Below are positions 20,660 to 36,580 of a stretch of 37,009 nt of DNA, in pieces (position 1 is the stretch's first letter; each line of letters opens with the position of its first letter). The notes under the pieces were generated by a model. It made no database searches and was not told the DNA's origin. It saw only the letters and a list, made by a program, of their open reading frames with translations. The DNA comes from Deltaproteobacteria bacterium (GTDB lineage: Bacteria > Desulfobacterota > BSN033 > UBA1163). The DNA is taken from NCBI GenBank assembly GCA_018333535.1, contig JAGXTA010000026.1, forward strand, positions 1 through 37,009, written 5' to 3'. The translations under genes and the position numbers were made by a program.

Positions 20660-20688
20660 TTGACGTAAATGACTAAGTATGGTAAAAA
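20660..20688 (+). promoter_or_regulatory. Possible promoter for the CBS-ACT gene with an ACGTAAA core
   Basis: TTGACG (20660-20665), 17 bases, then TAAAAA (20683-20688) is a fair sigma-70 match. The sequence TTGACGTAAATGAC includes ACGTAAA, the core shared with the sites at 10662 and 21496, but here the match extends over only seven bases. A ribosome binding site AAAGGAGAAG follows at about 20705. Confidence 0.4.
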
Positions 20689-20719
20689 ATTCTCAAATCA
20701 AAGGAAAGGAGAAGAGATT

Positions 20720-21397
20720 ATGAAGATTCACTACGCGGGATTTATGAGAGAAAAGATACGAAGGAATCCGATCACCATTGGCCCTGAGGCAAATTTTTTT
20801 GAGGCCCGGACCCTCATCCACGACAAGGGAGTTCGCCACCTTCCTGTCGTTGATAAGGAGAATCACCTCATCGGAATTGTCACAGACCGGGATATTCGGG
20901 AAGCCGCTCCATCTGACGCAACACTTCTCAGCATCCAGGAACTCAACTATCTTCTTGGAAAGCTGAAAGTCTCGGGCATCATGACATCCAAGGAAAAACT
21001 GATCACGATCAATCCGGATACATTGATCGAAGAGGCCGTCAAACTGATGCGGGACCATAAGATCGGATGCCTTCCTGTTGTGGAAGAAGGAAAGTTATAT
21101 GGAATCTTTACGGAGACGGATGCCCTTGATCATCTGGTGGACATCTTCGGCACTAATCAGAAAGGAACCCGTTTAACCATCACCTTTGAAGATAAACCCG
21201 GCGCCATACTCGGAGCCCTCGAAGTGTTTAAAAAGCTGAATATCAATATCATCAGCATCGTCACACCCTCTTTCATGGTGGATGGGAAAAGAATCGCCGC
21301 TATCCGGATTCAAACAGAAAATTATCAGGAAGCCAAAAAAGACATAGAGAAGGCGGGGTATGATGTCCTCTCTGTAGGCCATTGGCCATCAGTATAG
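20720..21397 (+). CDS. CBS-pair plus ACT domain protein (AcuB-like)
   Basis: A 225-residue cytoplasmic protein; the ATG at 20720 follows AAAGGAGAAG. Residues about 7-60 and 78-130 form a tandem CBS pair (FEARTLIHDKGVRHLPVVDKENHLIGIVTDRDI, and the matching IEEAVKLMRDHKIGCLPVVEEG), and residues about 147-222 form an ACT domain (TRLTITFEDKPGAILGALEVFKKLNI). CBS pairs commonly bind adenine nucleotides, and ACT domains bind amino acids. AcuB of Bacillus has the same layout and is linked to acetoin/acetyl-CoA use. Placed before merR and the beta-oxidation genes, it may sense energy charge or an amino acid and modulate the pathway; its target is unknown. Confidence 0.88.
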   Translation: MKIHYAGFMREKIRRNPITIGPEANFFEARTLIHDKGVRHLPVVDKENHLIGIVTDRDIREAAPSDATLLSIQELNYLLGKLKVSGIMTSKEKLITINPDTLIEEAVKLMRDHKIGCLPVVEEGKLYGIFTETDALDHLVDIFGTNQKGTRLTITFEDKPGAILGALEVFKKLNINIISIVTPSFMVDGKRIAAIRIQTENYQEAKKDIEKAGYDVLSVGHWPSV

Positions 21398-25549: not shown

Positions 25550-26698
25550 ATGGAAGTATCGGAACAAACCTTTGCCGGCAAATTTGACCTATATGGCTGT
25601 TATCAATGCGGAAAGTGCACAGGGGGATGTCCGGTCTCACTCAAGTCAAAATTGAATATCCGGCGGTTGATGATTGAAGGCATTTTGGGGAAAAACCTCG
25701 ACCGCATCGGTGAGAAAGAAGAACTCTGGGACTGCACTACCTGTAAGACCTGCACCCTGAGATGCCCGAGAGGGTTGAAGCCCATGGATCTTGTCATCGG
25801 GATGAGAGGGACCATGGTCGAAGAGGGACGTATTCCCAAGACGATCATCGAAGCCATGGAAAACGCCTACAAACATGGGAACCCTTGGGGAAAAGCGAAA
25901 AACAAACGAACGGAATGGCTCAAGAGCCTCCCTGAAGAGGTCAAGGTCAAAGATTTTTCCCGGGGGGATCGTGCGGAACTTCTCTACTTTGTCGGATGTA
26001 CGGCCGCTTCAGACCCCCGAATCCAGGAAATCGCCAAATCAATGGTCTTCATCTTTCAACAGACAGGGGTCGATTTTGCAATCCTTGGAAATGAGGAACA
26101 ATGTTGTGGCAATGAAATCAGGAGGATGGGAGAAGCGGGGCTTTTTGAAGAACTGATGGACGGAAATATCCAGCGTTTTGAATCCTATGGAATCGGCCAT
26201 ATTCTTACCGCTTGCCCCCATGGCTTCAATGTTTTTAAGAACGAATATCCCCAGGGCAAATTTGAAGTCCTCCATGCCACCCAGATCCTGGCGAAACGGT
26301 TGGAGGAAGGCAAGCTCCCTCTGACCCATGAGATTAAAAAGGTCGTCACCTATCACGACCCTTGTTTTCTTGGCAAGCAGAATAATATTTTTGATGAACC
26401 CCGCGCGCTTCTTACAGCCATCCCCGGCCTCACCTTTAGGGAGATGGACCGATCCCGTGAGAAGAGCCTCTGTTGCGAAGGCGGCGGCGGGAAGATGTGG
26501 GCAGAATCGTCTTCGGATACGGGCCAGCGTCTCTCTGAAATTCGCGTACAGGACGCCGTGGAACTCGGCGCAGAAATCCTTGCAACCGCCTGTCCCCTCT
26601 GCGTGCTCACCCTTGAAGACGCGGTGAAAACATCGGGACATGAAGAAAAGATTCGCGTCATGGATGTGATGGAATTATTGGCGGAGGCCATCGATTGA
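25550..26698 (+). CDS. Soluble Fe-S oxidoreductase with two CCG (HdrB/HdrD-like) domains
   Basis: A 382-residue cytoplasmic protein. The N-terminus carries two [4Fe-4S] motifs (C17-C20-C23-C27 and C62-C65-C68-C72). Two cysteine-rich CCG modules follow: C150, C185-C186-G187 and C222-P-H-G225, then C272 (YHDPCF), C308-C309 (CCEGGGG) and C348..C351 (CPLC). The first module lacks its fourth cysteine (G225 where CPHCF is usual); the second is complete. There are no membrane segments, unlike the membrane ETF-linked FeS oxidoreductases of syntrophs. Its place between acyl-CoA dehydrogenase and the NuoEFG-EtfBA genes suggests a relay for acyl-CoA or NADH electrons. The ATG follows a GGAG-containing leader, and the gene couples to the next with one base between. 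Confidence 0.9.
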   Translation: MEVSEQTFAGKFDLYGCYQCGKCTGGCPVSLKSKLNIRRLMIEGILGKNLDRIGEKEELWDCTTCKTCTLRCPRGLKPMDLVIGMRGTMVEEGRIPKTIIEAMENAYKHGNPWGKAKNKRTEWLKSLPEEVKVKDFSRGDRAELLYFVGCTAASDPRIQEIAKSMVFIFQQTGVDFAILGNEEQCCGNEIRRMGEAGLFEELMDGNIQRFESYGIGHILTACPHGFNVFKNEYPQGKFEVLHATQILAKRLEEGKLPLTHEIKKVVTYHDPCFLGKQNNIFDEPRALLTAIPGLTFREMDRSREKSLCCEGGGGKMWAESSSDTGQRLSEIRVQDAVELGAEILATACPLCVLTLEDAVKTSGHEEKIRVMDVMELLAEAID

Positions 26699-26699
26699 G

Positions 26700-27077
26700 A
26701 TGACGCTCGGTGACATTCAAAAACTCCTTGACGCCGAAGTGATTGCCGGAAGCGAAAACCTGGGAAGGGAAATTAGCCACGCTTTTGCGGCAGACCTTCT
26801 CAGCGATGTCCTGGCCATTGCCAGAAGAGGGGCCGACGGCGCCCTGCTCATTACCGGCAATATGACCCCTCAAGTGATCTATACTGCGGATGTGGTTGAT
26901 CTGGGCGCCATCCTCTTTGTCCGGGGGAAAAGGCCAACCGAACCGATGATCGAGCTGGCCAATCAGATTCAAATTCCCCTTCTGATGACTTCCTATATCA
27001 TGTTTGAAACCTGTGGACGTTTATACCACCAGGGATTGAAAGGATGCGTGGAAAAAGCCGGGGATGGAGCAGACTGA
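26700..27077 (+). CDS. DRTGG-domain protein (first of two)
   Basis: A 125-residue protein almost entirely covered by a DRTGG-type fold: MTLGDIQKLLDAEVIAGSEN, then FAADLLSDVLAIARRGADGALLITGNMTPQ, then IELANQIQIPLLMTSYIMFETCGRLYHQ. DRTGG domains also occur in CBS-domain phosphatases and in HPr kinase-like proteins and are thought to bind ligands, but their exact role is unclear. Similar single-domain proteins are, from memory, found beside [FeFe]-hydrogenase operons of Clostridia. The start is one base after the preceding stop, and the gene overlaps the next by 14 bases. Confidence 0.82.
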   Translation: MTLGDIQKLLDAEVIAGSENLGREISHAFAADLLSDVLAIARRGADGALLITGNMTPQVIYTADVVDLGAILFVRGKRPTEPMIELANQIQIPLLMTSYIMFETCGRLYHQGLKGCVEKAGDGAD

Positions 27078-27507
27078 GGAAAGGTATCCTTTCCACAACA
27101 CATTTCGTATCGAAGGAGGCAATTTTACACACGCGGGTTCGGTTTCGAGCCAGGTGAAAAGGATATTAAAAGAAGAGAGGTTCCCGAACAGCGTGATCCG
27201 CAGGGTTTCGATTGCCACCTTTGAAGCGGAGATGAATGTCATCTGTTATGCACATTGGGGAATCCTGACCTTGCTCGTATTTTCCGATTTCATAAAAGTG
27301 GCGATAGATGACGAAGGCCCTGGGATTCACGATGTGGATCAGGCGATGACAGAAGGGTTTTCCACCGCGAGCGATAAGATCCGGGAGCTCGGATTCGGGG
27401 CAGGCATGGGGTTATCGAATATCAAGAAGGTGACCGATGAGATGGTCCTGACCTCCGTGGTAAACCAGGGGACCCACCTCGAATTTATGGTCAAGGTTTT
27501 TTCATGA
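27064..27507 (+). CDS. RsbW/SpoIIAB-like ATPase (anti-sigma-type serine kinase fold)
   Basis: A 147-residue protein with a GHKL ATP-binding fold. The N-box is ATFEAEMNVICYAH (E54 and N58), the G1 box is DDEGPGI (82-88) and the G2 box is ELGFGAGMGLSNIKKVTD (108-125), ending NQGTHLEF. These are the marks of RsbW/SpoIIAB anti-sigma kinases, but no sigma factor or anti-anti-sigma partner is encoded here. It starts inside the previous gene and shares ATGA with the following one. It is therefore translated as part of the same unit, and possibly binds or phosphorylates one of the DRTGG partners. Confidence 0.85.
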   Translation: MEQTEERYPFHNTFRIEGGNFTHAGSVSSQVKRILKEERFPNSVIRRVSIATFEAEMNVICYAHWGILTLLVFSDFIKVAIDDEGPGIHDVDQAMTEGFSTASDKIRELGFGAGMGLSNIKKVTDEMVLTSVVNQGTHLEFMVKVFS

Positions 27508-27854
27508 AAGTGGAAGATCTGGTTAAATTTTTTGGGTTGGAAGTAAAGGCGGGGGACGGTCAGCTTCATCAGGAAGTGACCGGAGGGTATGTGGGCGATC
27601 TTCTCAGCGATGTCATCGCTCACAGCCTCAGAGGAAATGTCTGGGTCACCATTCAGACCCATCCCAATATCGTTGCCGTGGCCAGCATGAAAGAGTTGGC
27701 TGCCATTATTCTTGCAGGAGGACGGGAACCCGATCCGGAAACCCTGAAAAAGGCAGAGGAGGAAGGAATCCCCGTCCTGATCTCTCTCCTTCCCGCCTTT
27801 GAACTGGTAGGAAGGCTTTATCAAGCAGGGGTCGCAGGGATCGTTTCATGCTAA
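27504..27854 (+). CDS. DRTGG-domain protein (second of two)
   Basis: A 116-residue paralogue of the protein at 26700. Shared features are the DLLSDV motif after the first strand, the LAAIILAGGREPDPET / IPVLISLLPAFELVGRLYQAG pattern, and similar length. MKVEDLVKFFGLEV and VGDLLSDVIAHSLRGNVWVTIQ define its start. The ATGA overlap at 27504-27507 and the 7-base overlap with the PHP gene show strict coupling. The two DRTGG proteins flank the ATPase, so they may form a heterodimer around it. That is inference. Confidence 0.82.
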   Translation: MKVEDLVKFFGLEVKAGDGQLHQEVTGGYVGDLLSDVIAHSLRGNVWVTIQTHPNIVAVASMKELAAIILAGGREPDPETLKKAEEEGIPVLISLLPAFELVGRLYQAGVAGIVSC

Positions 27855-28588
27855 AGCGATTTCGCGCTGACCTCCACATTCACTCCTGCCTTTCTCCCTG
27901 CGGGAGCGAAGAGATGAAACCGCAGGCTGTTGTGGACCGGGCTATGACCGTTGGACTGGACATGATCGCTATCTGTGATCACAATTCTGCAGAGAACCTC
28001 ACAGCTTTTATCGAGGCCGGAAGAAAGAAAGGGCTCGCTGTTCTTCCGGGAATGGAGGTCGCCTCCAGAGAGGAAATCCATCTTCTTGCCCTTTTTAACC
28101 GCCCCGAAGACTGCCTGGCCCTCCAGGGCTGGGTTTATCAACACCTTCCCGGCAAGAATGAAGAAGACATCTTCGGTCCCCAGATTCTAATCAATGAGAA
28201 GTCCGAAACGATCGGACATAGCGATAAGATGTTGATCGGAGCGACTCTTCTTCCATTTGAACAGATCGTTTCCTTTGTGGGGACCCTTCAGGGAGTCGCA
28301 ATCGCCTCCCATATTGACCGGCAGGCTTTCAGTCTTCTGGGTCAATTAGGGTTTATCCCTGAAGGAGTTCAACTCGACGGGCTGGAGATTTCTTCCCGGA
28401 CTTCGCCGGAAGAGGCCCGGAGCCGATTTCGTTCTTACCAAGATTTTGCCTTTGTCCGTTTTTCGGATGCTCATTCTCTTGAGGAGATCGGAAAGGCATC
28501 AACTCAGTTTCTTCTCGAGGAGAGGACATCCGCTGAAATTAAAATGGCCCTCCATTCACAGGAAGGCCGCAGGATCGTGGAGAGTTAG
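27848..28588 (+). CDS. PHP-domain metal-dependent phosphoesterase
   Basis: A 246-residue PHP protein. The metal-site motifs are complete: D8-L-H10-I-H12 (ADLHIHSC), CDHNS, GMEV, ASHIDR and FSDAH near residues 210-214. Phosphoesterase activity on a nucleotide or phosphate ester is therefore likely. It overlaps the second DRTGG gene by 7 bases. PHP proteins next to DRTGG and GHKL proteins recur, to my knowledge, beside NADH-linked [FeFe]-hydrogenase genes. The substrate is unknown. A signal-nucleotide or protein-phosphate hydrolase opposing the ATPase would fit the neighbourhood. Confidence 0.88.
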   Translation: MLKRFRADLHIHSCLSPCGSEEMKPQAVVDRAMTVGLDMIAICDHNSAENLTAFIEAGRKKGLAVLPGMEVASREEIHLLALFNRPEDCLALQGWVYQHLPGKNEEDIFGPQILINEKSETIGHSDKMLIGATLLPFEQIVSFVGTLQGVAIASHIDRQAFSLLGQLGFIPEGVQLDGLEISSRTSPEEARSRFRSYQDFAFVRFSDAHSLEEIGKASTQFLLEERTSAEIKMALHSQEGRRIVES

Positions 28589-28608
28589 GAGGCTGTTGGA
28601 GATTAAAT

Positions 28609-29157
28609 TTGGAAGATCTCTCTCTCCATATCCTCGATGTTGTAGAGAATGCCATCGCCGCAAAGGCCAGAAGGATCGAGATTTCAGTCCTGGAAGAGAT
28701 TGAAGAAGATCGGTTGACGATAGAAATCAAAGACGATGGGATCGGAATGGATGAAGAAGTAAGGCAAAAGGCTGCGGACCCTTTTTTCACCACCCGCACC
28801 TCGCGGAGGGTGGGATTAGGCCTTTCCTTTCTTGCACAGGCCGCCGAGGAGGCAGGGGGAAAACTGGAAATTGAATCCCGTCCGGGAGATGGAACAAAGG
28901 TGAGGGCTACTTTCCAACATGGACATATTGACCGTAAACCGCTGGGGAGTATGTCTGAAACAATGGTCATGCTCTTTCTTGGAAATCCGGATGTCGATTT
29001 TCACTATAACCATATGAAAGGGGAAAAGTCCTATACCCTGAAAAGCCAATGGATGAGGGAGAGGTTCCCTGATCAATCTTATATGGCTCCGGATGCCATT
29101 CAGTGGTTAAGAAAACATCTCCAGGAGGGGTTGGAAGGGATAGGAGTACAAGGATGA
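28609..29157 (+). CDS. Histidine-kinase-type ATPase domain protein with unique C-terminal extension
   Basis: A 182-residue protein starting at TTG (28609) after TTGGAG. The GHKL boxes are HILDVVENAIAAKA (N14), IKDDGIGMDEE, and DPFFTTRTSRRVGLGLSFLAQAAEEAGG, followed by GDGTKVRATF. It lacks the usual dimerisation and phosphoacceptor histidine domain, so it is not a conventional sensor kinase. Residues about 105-182 (MSETMVMLFLGNPDVDFHYN, then FPDQSYMAPDAIQW) do not match a family I recognise. It ends in ATGA at 29154-29157 with the NuoE start, so its translation is directly tied to the redox complex. The function may be regulation or assembly of that complex. Confidence 0.83.
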   Translation: MEDLSLHILDVVENAIAAKARRIEISVLEEIEEDRLTIEIKDDGIGMDEEVRQKAADPFFTTRTSRRVGLGLSFLAQAAEEAGGKLEIESRPGDGTKVRATFQHGHIDRKPLGSMSETMVMLFLGNPDVDFHYNHMKGEKSYTLKSQWMRERFPDQSYMAPDAIQWLRKHLQEGLEGIGVQG

Positions 29158-29633
29158 GGTGGACAGAAGAGATCTCCCGTGAAGAATGGGAGAGAATAGA
29201 CCTGGTCATTGACAAATATAAAAGCCGGCATGGAGCCCTGATTCCGGTGCTTAAAGAGGTTCAGGACGTCTGCGGATATCTTCCTAAAAAAGTCCAGCAC
29301 CGGATCGCCGACGGGCTTCATCTCCCCTCTTCGCAGATTTTTGGGGTCGTCTCTTTCTATGCCTTCTTTACAACCGTTCCCAGGGGGCGAAATATCATCC
29401 GGGTCTGTATGGGGACCGCCTGTTATGTGAGGGGATCGAAAGAGATCCTCGACGCCCTCCGGAGGGAGTTGGGAGTGGATGTCGGAGGAATCACGAAGGA
29501 TCGAAAGTTTTCACTCGAAGCCGTTCGCTGCGTGGGAGCCTGTGGCCTGGCCCCTGTGGTCGTGGTGGGCCAGGACACGTATGGAATGATCACCCCGGGG
29601 AGGGCGGTCCAGATTCTGGGAAACTACACCTGA
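29154..29633 (+). CDS. nuoE: NuoE-like NADH dehydrogenase 24-kDa subunit
   Basis: A 159-residue [2Fe-2S] subunit. The ATG at 29154 overlaps the preceding stop (ATGA), preferred over an in-frame start at 29103. The four cluster cysteines are C85, C90 (VCMGTACYVRG), C126 and C130 (CVGACGLAPVV), as in NuoE/HndA. The N-terminal helical part has LIPVLKEVQDVCGYLPKKV and IFGVVSFYAFF. It should carry electrons next to NuoF's FMN. A 110-base gap with an AGGAAGCC-word repeat separates it from the next gene. Confidence 0.95.
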   Translation: MRWTEEISREEWERIDLVIDKYKSRHGALIPVLKEVQDVCGYLPKKVQHRIADGLHLPSSQIFGVVSFYAFFTTVPRGRNIIRVCMGTACYVRGSKEILDALRRELGVDVGGITKDRKFSLEAVRCVGACGLAPVVVVGQDTYGMITPGRAVQILGNYT

Positions 29634-29743: not shown

Positions 29744-30127
29744 ATGACAAAGTTAACCCTTGAGGATTTGAAAAAAATTAAAGAGGAGGTGCGGTCCTCG
29801 ACTCTTCTGAGGGAGGGAGGATTCCGGGCAAAGATCACCATCCATATGGGCACCTGCGGCATCGCCGCAGGCGCAAGAAAGCTGATGACAGCGGTCCTGA
29901 AAGAGGTCGAAGAGAAAAAGATCCAGGATGTGATGGTGACCACTTCCGGATGCGCAGGGCTCTGCAGCCGGGAGCCCATGGCAACCGTGGAGATCCTTGG
30001 GAATCCTCCGGTCAAATATTGTGATCTCAACGAGGAGAAGATAAAGGAGATCTTCCTCCAACATGTCGTCAATGGAGAGATCGTTGAGGCCTATGCCCTC
30101 GCCAGAGGGAGCGAATCGACTTACTAG
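29744..30127 (+). CDS. Thioredoxin-like [2Fe-2S] ferredoxin domain protein (HndB/HydB-like)
   Basis: A 127-residue small iron-sulfur protein. Cysteines C38 (GTCGIAAGARK), C70 and C74 (SGCAGLCSREP) and C93 (KYCDLNEEK) match the thioredoxin-like [2Fe-2S] family seen as HndB between NuoE- and NuoF-like genes of NADP-reducing hydrogenases. It lies between NuoE and NuoF here too. It probably acts as an extra electron carrier within the flavin module. The N-terminus has a coiled helix (LTLEDLKKIKEEVRSSTLL). The ribosome binding site is weak (AACAAGG, too far upstream to be ideal). Confidence 0.9.
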   Translation: MTKLTLEDLKKIKEEVRSSTLLREGGFRAKITIHMGTCGIAAGARKLMTAVLKEVEEKKIQDVMVTTSGCAGLCSREPMATVEILGNPPVKYCDLNEEKIKEIFLQHVVNGEIVEAYALARGSESTY

Positions 30128-30357: not shown

Positions 30358-32145
30358 ATGAAAACCTACAGAACTCATCTCATGGTATGTGCCGGAACAG
30401 GCTGCGTGGCCTGCGGCTCCTTGCAGTTAAGGGAACGGCTTGCCGCCGAATTGGAGAGCCGAAACCTTTCGGATGAAGTGCAATTGGTCATCACGGGTTG
30501 TAATGGCTTCTGCGCCGAAGGTCCGATCGTGGTGGTCTATCCCGAAGGAATCTTCTATAAAAAATTGACTCCGGAAGATGTCCCGTTTCTGGTCGAGGAA
30601 CATTTTCTCAAAGGCCGCCCTGTCCAAAAGTTTTTATACACTGCGCCGTCCGCTAAGGAAAAAGTTCCGCTCATGAAGGACATCCCCTTTTTCCAGCACC
30701 AGGTATTGAGGGCCCTTCGAAATCGGGGCCTGATCGATGCGGAGAATATTAATGAATATATTGCAAGGGACGGATATGCCGCTCTTCATAAAGTCCTCTC
30801 TTCGATGAAGCCCGAGGAGGTCATCGAAGAAGTGAAGCTTTCCGGGCTGAGGGGGCGCGGAGGCGCAGGATTTCCGACCGGCAAGAAATGGGAGGAAGGA
30901 AGGCGTTATACCTCTTTTCCCAAATATGTCATCTGCAACGGGGATGAAGGCGATCCGGGCGCCTTCATGGATCGGTCCGTTCTGGAGGCCGATCCCCATG
31001 CGGTCCTCGAGGGGATGGTCATTTGCGGTTATGCCACCGGCTCACATCAAGGCTATATTTATGTGAGAGCCGAGTATCCTCTTGCCATCCACAGGCTCAA
31101 CATCGCCATTGAGCAGGCAAGAAATTATGGACTGTTAGGGCACGATATCTTCGGTTCGGGTTTCGATTTCAATATCGGCATCTATCCGGGCGCAGGAGCC
31201 TTTGTCTGCGGGGAATCCACGGCTCTGATGTACTCCCTTGAGGGGAAGCGGGGAATGCCCAGGATCAAACCTCCCCGTTCAACCGAAGCAGGCCTCTGGG
31301 GACAGCCCACGATCCTCAATAACGTTGAGACCTTTGCCAATGTCCCTTCCATTCTGTTGCACGGAAGCTCATGGTTCGCCTCCATGGGCACATCAGGATC
31401 AAAGGGAACCAAAGTCTTCGCCCTCACAGGCGCCGTGCAAAATGTAGGGCTGATCGAAGTCCCCATGGGCACCACCCTGCGAAAAATTGTCTTTGACATC
31501 GGAGGAGGAATCCCCGACAAACGGGAATATAAGGCGGTGCAGATCGGCGGCCCCTCCGGAGCATGCTTGCCCGCCCCTCTCCTCGATACGGAAGTGGACT
31601 TCGACTCCCTTGATGAGGCTGGAGCGATGATGGGCTCCGGCGGTCTCGTGGTCATGAATGATATGACCTGCATGGTGGATACGGCCAGGTTTTTCACGGA
31701 CTTCTCCGTTGACGAATCCTGTGGAAAGTGCGTTCCCTGCCGGATCGGAATCAAAGTGATGCTCAATATTCTTCACCGGATCATCCGTGGCGAGGGAAAG
31801 ATCGAGGATATTGACCACCTCGAACAGCTTGGACAACATATCAAGGATTCCTCCCATTGCGGTCTTGGGAAATCGGCTCCCAATCCTGTCCTTTCCACCA
31901 TCCGTTATTTCCGGGAGGAATATGAAGCTCACATCATCGACAAACGGTGTCCATCCCTGGTCTGTGCGGATCTGGTTAAGTTTCAAGTCATTCCTGAAAA
32001 GTGCAAGATGTGCGGCCTCTGCAAAAAAGCCTGTCCCTCGGAGGCAGTCACCTGGGAGAAGAAGACGGCCGCGGTGATCGATCTGGAGAAATGTATCCGG
32101 TGTCGATCCTGCATCCAGGCCTGTAAGTTTTGGGCAATCGAATAG
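30358..32145 (+). CDS. nuoF: NuoF-like flavoprotein with N-terminal [2Fe-2S] and C-terminal ferredoxin domains
   Basis: A 595-residue NADH-binding subunit. Order of domains: thioredoxin-like [2Fe-2S] (C11, C16, C19, C48, C52), FMN site GLRGRGGAGFPTGKKW (163-178), NADH site CNGDEGDPGAF (193 onward), an SLBB domain, the N3 cluster ESCGKCVPC (C455, C458, C461) and C501, then a C-terminal two-cluster ferredoxin (C549/552/555/559 and C579/582/585/589). This layout is that of HndC/HydB-type subunits of electron-bifurcating complexes, longer than respiratory NuoF (about 440 residues). It should oxidise NADH, or reduce NAD, with the extra clusters linking to a partner. It is followed by the NuoG-like gene. 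Confidence 0.95.
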   Translation: MKTYRTHLMVCAGTGCVACGSLQLRERLAAELESRNLSDEVQLVITGCNGFCAEGPIVVVYPEGIFYKKLTPEDVPFLVEEHFLKGRPVQKFLYTAPSAKEKVPLMKDIPFFQHQVLRALRNRGLIDAENINEYIARDGYAALHKVLSSMKPEEVIEEVKLSGLRGRGGAGFPTGKKWEEGRRYTSFPKYVICNGDEGDPGAFMDRSVLEADPHAVLEGMVICGYATGSHQGYIYVRAEYPLAIHRLNIAIEQARNYGLLGHDIFGSGFDFNIGIYPGAGAFVCGESTALMYSLEGKRGMPRIKPPRSTEAGLWGQPTILNNVETFANVPSILLHGSSWFASMGTSGSKGTKVFALTGAVQNVGLIEVPMGTTLRKIVFDIGGGIPDKREYKAVQIGGPSGACLPAPLLDTEVDFDSLDEAGAMMGSGGLVVMNDMTCMVDTARFFTDFSVDESCGKCVPCRIGIKVMLNILHRIIRGEGKIEDIDHLEQLGQHIKDSSHCGLGKSAPNPVLSTIRYFREEYEAHIIDKRCPSLVCADLVKFQVIPEKCKMCGLCKKACPSEAVTWEKKTAAVIDLEKCIRCRSCIQACKFWAIE

Positions 32146-32282: not shown

Positions 32283-34805
32283 ATGAGTAATCGAACAGTA
32301 AAACTGACCATTGATGGCATTCCGGTAGAGGTCGAAAAGGGGAAGACCATTCTTGAGGCGGCCCAGTCGGCTGGAGTCCGAATCCCATCCCTGTGCCACG
32401 ACCCAAGACTCATCCCCTTTGGGGCTTGCAGGCTCTGTGTGGTCCAGGAGAAGGGTAAGTCAGAGCTCATTCCATCCTGTTTCACCCCCGCCAAAAACGG
32501 AATGGAGATCCTCACCACCTCTCCAAAAATCATCGATTCACGAAGGGTTCAACTCCAGCTCATCCTTCTCAATCATCCGATGACCTGCCCGCGGTGCGAA
32601 AAGGAAGGAGAATGCGACCTTCAGAACCTCATCTATGAATATGGGGTCAACGATACGCAATATCCCTGGGACCTGATCCCCTTTCCTGCGGACCACTCCC
32701 CTCTTCTCCAGAGGGACGCAAACAAATGCATCCTCTGCGGCCGCTGTGTGAGAATATGCGATGAAGTCCAGGGAGTGGGAGAACTTTCCTTCACGCGAAG
32801 GGGGATCCAGTCCATCATCGACACGGATTTTCATCGTCCGATTCAGTGCGAATTCTGCGGGCAGTGTCTCGATACCTGCCCGGTCGGCGCCATCACCAGC
32901 AACTGCTTTGATTACAAGGCCAAATCCTGGGAATTGGCTGAAACCACCACTCCCTGCCCTTACTGCGGGGTGGGGTGTTTGCTCACCATCGGCGCCAGAG
33001 AGGGAGAGATTAAGAAGGTCTTTTCCACGCCTGAACATGGCCCGAACGATGGAAATCTCTGCGTCAGGGGACGCTTCGGCTGGGACTTTATTGATTCTCA
33101 GGAGAGGCTGAAATCACCCCTTCTCAGGGTCAATGGATCGCTTGGAGAAGTTACATGGGAAGAAGCGCTTGGATTTGTAGCTCAAAAACTCGAAGAGATA
33201 AAGAATAAATATGGCCCGCAGAACATTGGGGCGATGATTTCAAGCCGCCTCTCTAATGAGGAATATGTTCTCTTCAAAAAACTCCTCAAGGATGCGATAG
33301 GCGCGGAGCAGGTCGCGCTGAATGGAGCAAGGGGCGATCAAGGCTTAACAGAAGGGCTCTCAAAAACCCTCGGGTTTGCCTCTTCCACAAATTCCATCAA
33401 AGAGATCCGGAAAGCGGATTGCATCTTCATCATCGGAGTCGATCCTGCCCAGACCCATCCCATTATTAAGAATGAGGTCCATCTGGCCATCCGGAAGAAC
33501 AAGGCTCAACTCATTGTCCTGGGACCCCATGATATCGGCCTCAGCAGGGCCACGCATCTCTCACCTCTCTCCCCCTCTTCGATTCTTCTTCCTGTTAAAC
33601 CGGGCGAAGAACTCTCCCTTCTCAATGCAATGGCCGGAGTCATTTTAAAGGAAGGCCTTGAAAATCAGGGATTCATCGGACAATGGACCGAAGGAATTGA
33701 AGAGTTAAGGAAGAAACAGGATGAGTGCTTGTCAGGCCTTTCGGATGTGGAACGAAGCACCGTTGAGAAAGCAGCGAGAGCCTTTGCCCAATCGAAGAGG
33801 GCGATGATTCTGATTGGATCCGGTTCCTGGTCTCATTCTGATTCCGCGAACATAGCCTCGGCTTGTTCCAATCTCGCTCTTCTGACCGGCCATGTCGGCA
33901 AGGAGGGCTCGGGAATTCTTCTTCTCCTTGAGAAATGTAACAGCCAGGGAGCCATTGATATAGGGATTTTTTCAGGGGCAAAGGAGATGAATGATCTTGT
34001 CAAACAGGCGGAGGAGGGAAAGCTTAAGGCCCTCTATCTCGTGGGAAAGACCCCTGCCCTGCCTCCCAGGGCTCTGGAGAACCTCGAACTTCTGGTGGTT
34101 CAGGACCTCTTTATGACTGAAGCCGCAAAGGGGGCCCATGTCGTGCTTCCGGCCTGTTCGTTTGTTGAGAAGTCAGGAACCTACACCAATCTGGAACGAA
34201 GGGTTCAGAAACTTCATCCTCTTCGTCCGCCCAAAGGTCAGTCAAAATCAGACTTCGAGATCTTCCTCCGACTGCTTCGTCTCCTGGAGGTCCCGGTTTC
34301 AGGAGAGACCCCGGAGGCCATCTTTCAGGATATTTCCAAAATCAATCCCCAATATCAAGGCCTTCAGGATGGGGAGCAGTGGCCCAAGGGAGCCGGCTAT
34401 CTTTACGGAGATGGGTTTCCCATGGGGAAAGCAAAATTCATCCCTCTTGCTCAACCTCAGCCTAAACCTCAACCTGACGATTATCCCTTCTGTCTGATTG
34501 AGAAATCGTCGCTCTTTCAATCGGGCGAGCTCAGCCTGAAGAGTGAAAATCTGAAGAGGGTGATGGAGAAGCCTTTTCTGGAGATGAATATCGAGGATGC
34601 TCAATCTTTGAACCTCCAAGAAGGAGAAATGATGGAACTCTCATCCTCCGCTGGGAAAACATCGAAGATGAAGGTCCGTCTCTCCTCAATGCCTGCGCGG
34701 GGGATCATGATTGCCCCCTTCCCATGTTCCCTTGTTGAGGACGGATGGGCATGGGTAAAATTGGAGAGGAAAAAAATTAACCATCTGATGAAAGGAGGAA
34801 GGTGA
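32283..34805 (+). CDS. NuoG/FdhA-like Fe-S molybdopterin-fold subunit lacking the Sec/Cys Mo ligand
   Basis: An 840-residue protein. The N-terminal quarter has [2Fe-2S] cysteines C38, C49, C52, C66, the His-Cys cluster (H98, C102, C105, C111) and two [4Fe-4S] clusters (C149/152/155/159 and C189/192/195/199). It continues with the molybdopterin-oxidoreductase Fe-S motif C225-C228-C232 and C260. At the site where formate dehydrogenases read CAR-x-(Sec/Cys)-H this protein reads GARGDQG (348-354), so D352 replaces the ligand and Q353 the catalytic histidine. No in-frame TGA exists. The C-terminal domain is short. I infer a NuoG-like electron subunit without formate activity, or a redesigned active site. 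EtfB follows directly. Confidence 0.9.
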   Translation: MSNRTVKLTIDGIPVEVEKGKTILEAAQSAGVRIPSLCHDPRLIPFGACRLCVVQEKGKSELIPSCFTPAKNGMEILTTSPKIIDSRRVQLQLILLNHPMTCPRCEKEGECDLQNLIYEYGVNDTQYPWDLIPFPADHSPLLQRDANKCILCGRCVRICDEVQGVGELSFTRRGIQSIIDTDFHRPIQCEFCGQCLDTCPVGAITSNCFDYKAKSWELAETTTPCPYCGVGCLLTIGAREGEIKKVFSTPEHGPNDGNLCVRGRFGWDFIDSQERLKSPLLRVNGSLGEVTWEEALGFVAQKLEEIKNKYGPQNIGAMISSRLSNEEYVLFKKLLKDAIGAEQVALNGARGDQGLTEGLSKTLGFASSTNSIKEIRKADCIFIIGVDPAQTHPIIKNEVHLAIRKNKAQLIVLGPHDIGLSRATHLSPLSPSSILLPVKPGEELSLLNAMAGVILKEGLENQGFIGQWTEGIEELRKKQDECLSGLSDVERSTVEKAARAFAQSKRAMILIGSGSWSHSDSANIASACSNLALLTGHVGKEGSGILLLLEKCNSQGAIDIGIFSGAKEMNDLVKQAEEGKLKALYLVGKTPALPPRALENLELLVVQDLFMTEAAKGAHVVLPACSFVEKSGTYTNLERRVQKLHPLRPPKGQSKSDFEIFLRLLRLLEVPVSGETPEAIFQDISKINPQYQGLQDGEQWPKGAGYLYGDGFPMGKAKFIPLAQPQPKPQPDDYPFCLIEKSSLFQSGELSLKSENLKRVMEKPFLEMNIEDAQSLNLQEGEMMELSSSAGKTSKMKVRLSSMPARGIMIAPFPCSLVEDGWAWVKLERKKINHLMKGGR

Positions 34806-35597
34806 ATGAATATTATCGTCTGTATCAAAAGGGTTCCGGACACAGCGGATGCGGATATCTTCATCGACAAGTCGGGAAAAGATATCGAGAAAAGCGGGCT
34901 GGCGTTCGACCTGAACGAATGGGATAGTTACGCCATTGAGGAGGCCATCCAGCTGAAGGAGAAGCTGGGTGGAACCGTGACCGTCCTTTCTGCGGGAGGC
35001 GAGGATTCAAATGAATCCCTGAGAAAGTGCCTCGCCATGGGCGCGGATGATGCGTTCCGGTTAAGTGATCCGGCTTTTGCTGGTGGGGACGGCCTGGCCA
35101 CCGCCAGGGTCCTTGCAGAAGCGATTCGTACAAGACCTTTTGATCTTATTTTAGCCGGCACTCAGGCCGAAGACGATGGGTATGGTCAGGTGGGCGTGGT
35201 GATGGCAGAGATGCTCGGCGTCCCCCATGTCTCCATTGTCAACCGCATTGAGGTCCAGGAGAAAAAGATCAAGGCCCATCGCGAATTAGAGGGCGGCCTC
35301 GAGGAAGTCGTTGAGGTCGATCTCCCCGCGCTTCTTACGATTCAGACAGGAATCAATGAACCGCGATATGTCTCCATTATGGGCATCCGGAAAGTAGCCA
35401 AGAAGGAGATCAAGGCCTTTGGAGCCTCAGACCTCAATCTGAAACCTGAAGAGGTGGGGCTTTCCGGTTCGGATATCCAGCTCGAAAAGGTTTTTCTTCC
35501 TTTGGTCGGCGAAGGAGCAGAGATGCTTGAGGGAAAACCGGAGGAGATCGCGCTGAAGGTCTTCGACATTCTGAGAGATAAAGGAGGGGTGGCCTGA
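34806..35597 (+). CDS. etfB: Electron transfer flavoprotein beta subunit
   Basis: A 263-residue EtfB starting at 34806, immediately after the stop of the NuoG-like gene, behind AAAGGAGG at its end. It opens MNIIVCIKRVPDTADADIF, has LNEWDSYAIEEAIQLKEKLG where NPFD-(x)-(x)-ALEEA is typical, GGDGLATARVLAEAI, and the AGTQAEDDGYGQVGVVMAEML adenine-nucleotide loop. With EtfA it receives electrons from acyl-CoA dehydrogenase. The stop and the EtfA start overlap at 35597. Whether this pair is electron-bifurcating cannot be read with confidence from the sequence alone. Confidence 0.95.
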   Translation: MNIIVCIKRVPDTADADIFIDKSGKDIEKSGLAFDLNEWDSYAIEEAIQLKEKLGGTVTVLSAGGEDSNESLRKCLAMGADDAFRLSDPAFAGGDGLATARVLAEAIRTRPFDLILAGTQAEDDGYGQVGVVMAEMLGVPHVSIVNRIEVQEKKIKAHRELEGGLEEVVEVDLPALLTIQTGINEPRYVSIMGIRKVAKKEIKAFGASDLNLKPEEVGLSGSDIQLEKVFLPLVGEGAEMLEGKPEEIALKVFDILRDKGGVA

Positions 35598-36580
35598 TGA
35601 AAGAGATTATTGTTGTCGCAGAACATCGACAGGGAGAATTGAGAGATGTGACCTGGGAGATGCTCTCCAAGGGGCGGGAACTTTCAGAGGGTCTTGGCGG
35701 AGAATTATCGGTCGCCCTCATGGGAAAGGACGTGAAGAACCTTGCGGAAGCCCTTAAACCCAAAGCCAACAGAGTGCTCCTCATTGAAGACAACCGGCTT
35801 GAATTTTATAACTCGGAGACTTATGAGAAGGTCCTCACCCAGCTCATCACCGAGAGAAAACCCATGCTCACGATGATCGGCCACACGGCCACAGGCATGG
35901 ACTTTGCGCCGAGCCTGGCCGCTCATCTGAAGATCCCTCTGGCTACGGACTTAATCGGCATTGATGCGAAGGATGAAACCTTCGCCCTCACCCGCCAGAT
36001 TTATGGCGGAAAGATCAATGCTTCTGTCTCCTTTTTGAAAAAAGCGCCCCAGTATATGGCCACGCTTCGCGCAGGGGCTTTTCCTGTGGCGGAGAAAGGA
36101 CCTCTCCCGGGAGAGATCGTCTCGATTCCCTCTCCGTTGACGGACGAAGCTCTGGCCAGACGTTTTCTCGAATATGTGGAGGCCGCCGCAGGTGAGGTCG
36201 ATATCACCCAGGCCGATATTCTCATCGCCATCGGAAGAGGAATCAAGGATGCGGAAAACATTCCCATGGTGAAGGAACTGGCTGACTCCCTGGGAGGAGT
36301 GCTTGCCTGCTCACGGCCTGTGGTCGATAAGAAATGGCTTCCCAAAAGCTCTCAGGTCGGAACCTCCGGGAAGACCGTCAAGCCGAAAATCTATGTCGCC
36401 ATCGGCATCAGCGGCGCCTTTCAGCATGTCGCAGGGATGAAGGGGGCAGGAACGATCATCGCCGTTAACAAGGACCCCAAGGCCCCGATCTTCGGCGTTG
36501 CCCAGTATGGCATCGTGGCAGACCTGTTCAAGATTATTCCGGTGATCAAGGACAAGGTTAAGGAACTGAAAAAAAGTTAG
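35597..36580 (+). CDS. etfA: Electron transfer flavoprotein alpha subunit
   Basis: A 327-residue EtfA, overlapping EtfB by one base (TGATG). The FAD-binding C-terminal half shows IAIGRGIKDAENIPMVKELA, then SRPVVDKKWLP, SQVGTSGKTVKPKIYVAIGISGAFQHVAGM, and NKDPKAPIFGVAQYGIVADLFKIIP. The N-terminal domain EIIVVAEHRQGELRDVTWEML is canonical, with no extra ferredoxin domain. It is the last gene of the redox island and is followed by hairpin repeats. It is the natural partner of EtfB and of the acyl-CoA dehydrogenase at 24309. Confidence 0.95.
   Translation: MKEIIVVAEHRQGELRDVTWEMLSKGRELSEGLGGELSVALMGKDVKNLAEALKPKANRVLLIEDNRLEFYNSETYEKVLTQLITERKPMLTMIGHTATGMDFAPSLAAHLKIPLATDLIGIDAKDETFALTRQIYGGKINASVSFLKKAPQYMATLRAGAFPVAEKGPLPGEIVSIPSPLTDEALARRFLEYVEAAAGEVDITQADILIAIGRGIKDAENIPMVKELADSLGGVLACSRPVVDKKWLPKSSQVGTSGKTVKPKIYVAIGISGAFQHVAGMKGAGTIIAVNKDPKAPIFGVAQYGIVADLFKIIPVIKDKVKELKKS

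Follow-up and report, generated by a model that had tools for sequence, protein, structure and literature searches.

A conserved five-gene module with a swappable input beside NADH/ferredoxin electron-transfer enzymes of anaerobic bacteria

Five genes encoding two DRTGG proteins, two GHKL ATPases and a PHP-family phosphoesterase form a conserved module in many anaerobic bacteria, situated beside NADH/ferredoxin electron-transfer enzymes, and the input of this module is swappable, the sensor having been exchanged several times in the course of evolution. We found no published description of the five-gene module, and a literature search on DRTGG and hydrogenase returned nothing relevant. How much energy anaerobes have to spend is determined by electron-bifurcating NADH/ferredoxin enzymes, whose control is left unexplained in the literature that we found. 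A dedicated and transferable control module, if true, would constitute a first handle on the control of bifurcating enzymes, and the question is directly testable. We give about an even chance to the reading that the five genes encode a partner-switch-like phospho-module tuning Bfu-type NADH/ferredoxin (NuoEF) oxidoreductases.

Arrangement and conservation of the module

The window is a stretch of 37,009 nucleotides from a Deltaproteobacteria bacterium (contig JAGXTA010000026.1). All five ORFs that the original prediction had placed at 26700-29157 were found there on the forward strand, namely those of DRTGG1 (26700..27077, 125 aa), the SpoIIAB/RsbW-like ATPase GHKL1 (27064..27507, 147 aa), DRTGG2 (27504..27854, 116 aa, with a WxTxQxHxN motif), PHP (27848..28588, 246 aa) and GHKL2 (28609..29157, 182 aa), a MutL/histidine-kinase-like ATPase. 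Thiolase, hydroxyacyl-CoA dehydrogenase and acyl-CoA dehydrogenase genes precede the module on the same strand, followed by the gene of an HdrD/TfrB-like Fe-S protein of 382 aa with two 4Fe-4S motifs and two CCG domains (CCG protein, 25550..26698). Downstream lie a NuoE/BfuC-like 2Fe-2S subunit (29154..29633), translationally coupled to GHKL2, a small 2Fe-2S ferredoxin-like protein of the clostridial thioredoxin-like type (Fdx, 29744..30127), a NuoF/BfuB-like FMN subunit (30358..32145), a NuoG/FdhA-like molybdopterin-fold subunit (32283..34805), EtfB (34806-35597) and EtfA (35597-36580), all on the forward strand. The two Etf genes are conserved as the next genes in the clade of the window, and EtfBA are likely electron partners of the window complex. 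The predicted chain of junctions from the CCG stop at 26698 to NuoE at 29154 was also recovered (1-base gap, 14-base overlap, ATGA, 7-base overlap, 20-base gap, ATGA); it ends at NuoE, with gaps of 110 bases between NuoE and Fdx and 230 bases between Fdx and NuoF. The start codon of GHKL2 is TTG, and the proteins of its relatives start with MEDLSLHI at the same spot.

The domain calls made earlier for the module were borne out by Pfam matches exceeding the curated cut-offs. DRTGG1 and DRTGG2 scored 33.3 and 29.3 bits for PF07085 (cut-off 25.2), GHKL1 matched HATPase_c/HATPase_c_2, PHP reached 39.6 bits, GHKL2 gave 69.9 bits for HATPase_c, and the adjoining NuoE was recognized as 2Fe-2S_thioredx with 164 bits. 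Sequence matches of the DRTGG proteins to designed 'Pizza' propellers in the PDB were judged to be repeat artefacts.

Module loci were collected with a PHP profile (A1) that set the family sharply apart from other PHP proteins. At a cut of E<=1e-25 it matched 86 of the 395 genomes from the phylum of the window, nearly all at E < 1e-83, and 41 of 396 genomes of a second phylum, the one with Aminicenantes; 80 named loci came from many phyla. Bacillota and Thermotogota were hardly sampled, Bacillota being represented in the survey by a single Subdoligranulum locus (L215) and otherwise through the literature. ORFs were called mechanically and annotated with profile HMMs built for this analysis at hand-set thresholds. 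The resulting set comprised 171 non-redundant loci, 91 of which had at least 8 kb on either side (full-flank loci); since loci were sampled by similarity to the window, counts are not population frequencies. All five genes were present in 79 of the 91 full-flank loci, and 74 of these 79 kept the order DRTGG1-GHKL1-(HydS)-DRTGG2-PHP-GHKL2. The original prediction had staked itself beforehand on a conserved NuoEF neighbourhood, and such a neighbourhood was present in 80 of the 91 full-flank loci, with NuoF within ~10 kb and, in 74, on the same strand; no NuoF was found nearby in the other 11. These counts rule out random proximity of the genes. Natural fusions also occur within the set, joining DRTGG1 to GHKL1 in three loci (L068, L181, L187), HydS to DRTGG2 in two (L051, L103) and PHP to GHKL2 in three (L096, L123, L128), which argues that the parts work together.

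Partner enzyme and exchangeable input

The third subunit next to NuoEF varied among the 91 full-flank loci, being HydA in 5, of the molybdopterin type in 31 and of the HdrA type in 21, while none was recognized in 34. Some of the molybdopterin subunits of relatives are selenocysteine formate dehydrogenases, their ORF split at a TGA and reading ..CARLUHS... The clade of the window, with Nitrospirota and a few others, lacks the His and has Gly, Ala or Ser in place of Sec; in the window subunit a glycine (the G in NGARGDQG) occupies the Sec/Cys site and no His neighbours it. With this site lost, a formate dehydrogenase was ruled out as the partner in the window. Since the third subunit may be HydA, a Sec-formate dehydrogenase, HdrA or a NuoG-like protein, it is the NuoEF (Bfu) core that the module accompanies, and not the hydrogenase. 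The genomic core of the earlier proposal, that a signalling-like module serves NuoEFG-type complexes in general, is thereby supported, HydA adjoining only 5 of the 91 modules. The replaceable partner goes beyond that proposal, as do the exchangeable input and the missing maturases described below.

Bfu is an enzyme superfamily with an exchangeable third subunit (Schut et al., PMC9304861); genes for kinases, sensors or PHP proteins do not figure in the main text of that paper. By domain make-up, the window NuoE, NuoF and NuoG-like subunits match BfuC, BfuB and BfuA, the third subunit being exchangeable in both cases. At this level the BfuBC core is present in the window, where NuoF carries an N-terminal 2Fe-2S thioredoxin-like domain and C-terminal 2x[4Fe-4S] domains next to a NuoE-like BfuC, and BfuA is NuoG-like and lies beside EtfBA. 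The window NuoEFG thus fits the Bfu family as far as domains define it.

HydS, a putative 'sensory hydrogenase' of the [FeFe] group D, was encoded in 60 non-redundant loci and an N-terminal CBS pair on GHKL1 in 30 others, which were without HydS. The two never occurred together in 147 loci with GHKL1 (P ~ 3e-8, ignoring kinship). HydS was present in 38 of the 91 full-flank loci and was positioned after GHKL1 and ahead of PHP in 37 of 37 full loci, its gene sitting directly before that of DRTGG2; in Parabacteroides (L034), for instance, a HydS of 459 aa with two N-terminal 4Fe-4S motifs, an H-domain and PF04060 is encoded between GHKL1 and DRTGG2. On a quick tree of PHP and GHKL2 (135 loci) the input state changed at least 16 times, and on strongly supported branches alone HydS had to change at least 4 times, CBS at least 3 times and the state without either at least 2 times. 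The forms with CBS or with no sensor are conserved across phyla and not decaying. GHKL1 of the window has neither a HydS gene after it nor a CBS pair on it. As the window and many relatives are without a recognizable sensor, the input there is a guess; candidates are the CCG protein, whose gene lies directly upstream of DRTGG1 in every one of the 11 loci from the clade of the window and which could be a redox input or an electron partner, and, in a Nitrospirota locus (L125), a gene located 10 bases upstream that codes for a kinase-like ATPase domain.

A putative phospho-switch and its alternatives

GHKL1 of the window retains an intact N box (E54, E56, N58), G1 box (D83, G85, G87) and G2 box (G110-N119); these catalytic boxes are 99-100% conserved among relatives, and the best Foldseek match of the protein is SpoIIAB (1til, TM 0.83 on target). 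DRTGG1 matched AF1212 and the CBS-DRTGG pyrophosphatase in Foldseek. Both DRTGG proteins carry an invariant Ser35 (conservation 1.0 over 142 rows for DRTGG1 and 154 rows for DRTGG2) in a D-L-x-S-D motif, DLLSD in DRTGG1 of the window, a motif that was not found in the third DRTGG protein of the genome, an HPr-kinase-like ORF. AlphaFold was given natural fusions and in-frame neighbours read through stop codons, with shallow alignments (37 rows). Rather than unrelated domains with no shared interfaces, SpoIIAB/RsbW-type and DRTGG folds were obtained, and the natural DRTGG1-GHKL1 fusion reached a pTM of 0.84, which implies a defined docking of the modelled partners, although pTM alone gives no placement of Ser35 relative to the ATP site. 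In this fusion model the serine equivalent to Ser35 comes after a strand, where a helix begins; the phosphoserine of SpoIIAA has the same position. PHP has the complete metal site that had been predicted (H10, H12, D44, H45, E70, H78, H155, D207, H209), with ligands at least 99% conserved among relatives, and the structures closest to it are those of EndoQ, TM0559 and RNase AM. GHKL2 is similar both to MutL and to histidine kinases and bears a conserved C-terminal extension (HIDRKPLG); the PHP-GHKL2 fusion model gave a pTM of 0.69 with moderate inter-domain confidence.

The intact boxes and SpoIIAB match of GHKL1, Ser35 of the DRTGG proteins and the fusions together make a partner-switch-like phospho-module directed at the NuoEF core our preferred explanation. 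We infer from them a kinase/phosphatase switch, with regard to phosphotransfer, the phosphosite, the role of PHP and the output alike. GHKL1 would act as a SpoIIAB/RsbW-like ATP-dependent serine kinase, holding or phosphorylating DRTGG1 and DRTGG2 in place of a STAS partner, most likely on Ser35 by structural analogy with SpoIIAA. PHP might be the hydrolytic counterpart that takes the phosphate off or cleaves a nucleotide signal; GHKL2, next to NuoE, might be a second ATP-driven clamp or kinase. The input would report the redox or energy state of the cell to GHKL1, through an Fe-S protein of the HydS type, in most cases with no H2 chemistry, or an adenylate-responsive CBS pair; in the clade of the window the neighbouring CCG protein might take this part, or the DRTGG domains might bind a ligand directly. 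No DNA-binding gene is constant in the module, so the output is probably a contact between proteins by which the activity or assembly of the NuoEF core is adjusted. STAS and PP2C are the usual partners of RsbW-like kinases, and their absence counts against a phospho-module, as does the nature of PHP enzymes, most of which are nucleases or nucleotidases rather than protein phosphatases.

The likeness to partner switching (SpoIIAB/SpoIIAA, RsbW/RsbV) extends to the fold and intact kinase boxes of GHKL1 and to the small adjoining protein with an invariant serine, sometimes fused to it. However, no STAS match was obtained with Pfam among the five module proteins, where DRTGG appears instead, PHP stands where PP2C would be expected, no sigma-factor gene lies within the module itself, and a second GHKL ATPase and the link to a redox enzyme are additional. 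In its mode of action the module therefore resembles partner switching, without belonging to that class. Nor is it a two-component system, as no DHp domain occurs in either ATPase: only HATPase models matched over their 147 and 182 aa, as the original prediction had anticipated for GHKL2 in noting the lack of a phosphoacceptor domain. A fuller statement, somewhat short of an even chance in our estimate, would be that of a widespread and unnamed phospho-module set directly on NuoEF (Bfu), with DRTGG for STAS, PHP for PP2C and a plug-in sensor slot, in which most HydS proteins are plain Fe-S redox sensors with their H2 chemistry lost.

Some of the same observations could be accommodated by a role in assembly or repair, which we consider unlikely. 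On this view GHKL2, acting as a MutL/Hsp90-like clamp, would join GHKL1 and the two DRTGG proteins as chaperones driven by ATP, inserting clusters or FMN into NuoE/NuoF or replacing the third subunit, while PHP would remove a by-product nucleotide. The adjacency of GHKL2 to NuoE in the clade of the window and many relatives, its resemblance to MutL and the constant association with NuoEF whatever the third subunit all speak for such a role. The exchange of HydS for a CBS pair at the same place is left unexplained by it, though, and the serine-kinase type of GHKL1, the 11 full-flank loci without NuoF nearby and the many NuoEF enzymes that function without the module weigh against it.

Quite unlikely, in our view, is a nucleotide cassette, in which PHP would hydrolyse a signalling or damaged dinucleotide arising from redox imbalance, DRTGG and CBS would bind this dinucleotide, and the ATPases would merely gate the enzyme, with no protein phosphorylation. 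The structures nearest to PHP do act on nucleic acids or nucleotides, but this scheme requires a synthase that was not seen and leaves the intact SpoIIAB-type kinase boxes unaccounted for. DRTGG beside an adenylate-binding CBS pair likewise serves as the regulatory unit of family II pyrophosphatases (3l31/3l2b, PMC11172384), which fits a nucleotide ligand; in the module, by contrast, the CBS pair is fused to the SpoIIAB-like ATPase and the DRTGG proteins are free-standing.

HydS and the question of H2 sensing

The earlier statement that no hydrogenase is present holds genome-wide, PF02906 giving 0 matches in the 97% complete genome of the window. HydG was likewise not found in this genome, and a HydS gene was absent from both window and genome, so that the window locus is not a group-D hydrogenase locus. 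In relatives, HydS has the group-D/M2e architecture of TamHydS, with the H-domain cysteines, two N-terminal 4Fe-4S motifs, the C-terminal Cx2Cx4Cx16C and no PAS match; the four H-domain cysteines are nearly always retained, and the PCxxK lysine is retained in most and lost in several. TamHydS reacts with H2, its gene precedes those of a trimeric HydABC and neighbours that of a histidine-kinase-like ATPase, a pairing also seen in the relatives, and the apo-protein, with the di-iron site missing, still carries four [4Fe-4S] clusters (PMC8163306), which makes a hydrogenase-free Fe-S sensor plausible. The accessible parts of the group-D literature (PMC8163306, PMC13104023) hold no description of a five-gene set around HydS.

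A maturase census covering HydG and HydF found both above cut-offs in only 2 of 37 genomes with a HydS-bearing module (G386 and G676), the same two that have strong HydA matches; in most of the remaining HydS genomes HydS was the sole PF02906 match. Incomplete assembly is no explanation for the absence of HydG, since the product of the missing fractions over 15 same-phylum genomes without HydG above cut-off is ~1e-22. With HydG and HydF missing, HydS is probably without the H2-binding di-iron subcluster in most of these species, where no H-cluster is expected and an Fe-S redox sensor is the more likely function; most 'hydrogen sensors' fitted to the module in other species thus probably cannot be working hydrogenases. 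Dependence of HydS on HydA was ruled out by the full-flank counts, 4 of the 5 modules adjoining HydA being without HydS. That the ancestral module senses H2 via a group-D HydS and regulates a hydrogenase, loci without HydS being relics or having it encoded elsewhere, is very unlikely despite TamHydS and the frequency of HydS, given the maturases missing from 35 of 37 HydS genomes, which rule out H2 sensing as a general function for most of them, the rarity of adjoining HydA and the conserved forms with CBS or no sensor.

Many of the genomes to which a group-D 'H2-sensing hydrogenase' has been assigned are therefore probably unable to make one, and the missing maturases affect predictions of hydrogen metabolism from metagenomes. 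A few genomes with [FeFe]-hydrogenase genes but no maturases had been noted in passing in the ProPhylo study of 2011 (PMC3226654). HydG was found, as expected, in two genomes (G051 and G148) whose modules adjoin HydA.

Subunits beside the module

In the window, the genes for the NuoG-like subunit and EtfBA span positions 32283-36580, and the same arrangement is found in six other loci bearing the module (L035, L038, L041-L043 and L045). The NuoG-like subunit has lost its Sec/Cys site in all of them, the window included, and is followed by EtfBA and then by acyl-CoA dehydrogenase genes wherever the contig reaches. These genes appear to encode an uncharacterised complex of Bfu type, linked to NADH and ETF, for the oxidation of fatty acids or aromatic acids. 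Elsewhere, a NuoF of about 1018 aa adjoins the module (L046, L063, L076, L145, L148, L170 and L171); no third subunit was recognised near this long NuoF in most of these loci, though one was in L046.

Second module copy and hydrogenase maturation genes

A genome of the window's genus (G003) carries a second copy of the module, with HydS, on contig C136 (L047, L216). This HydS is the sole [FeFe]-hydrogenase domain in G003, and no gene for the maturase HydG was found in the genome. In another genome, G355, a HydG remnant of 62 residues adjoins a HydE-like gene (C2:433242-433959), about 11 kb past the module (L148); there the hydrogenase maturation locus is apparently decaying while the module is kept.

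Genes upstream of the module

In L125, a Nitrospirota locus with neither HydS nor CBS, the gene at 170-1771, 10 bases upstream of DRTGG1, encodes 533 aa and includes an ATPase domain resembling that of histidine kinases. Similar large genes occur farther upstream in L077, L091, L104 and L132, and this type may represent a fourth kind of module input. The window encodes an AcuB-like protein with a CBS pair and an ACT domain (20669-21397), 5 kb upstream of the module, and no evidence links the two.

Labels of the source records

Two module loci, L034 (Parabacteroides) and L215 (Subdoligranulum), come from records labelled 'plasmid'. L034 bears gyrA and further household genes and is probably a chromosomal contig wrongly labelled. 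The record of L071, titled 'Clostridiales bacterium A05DMB-I-28', shares its phylum with an Aminicenantes genome of the genome set and is probably misnamed.
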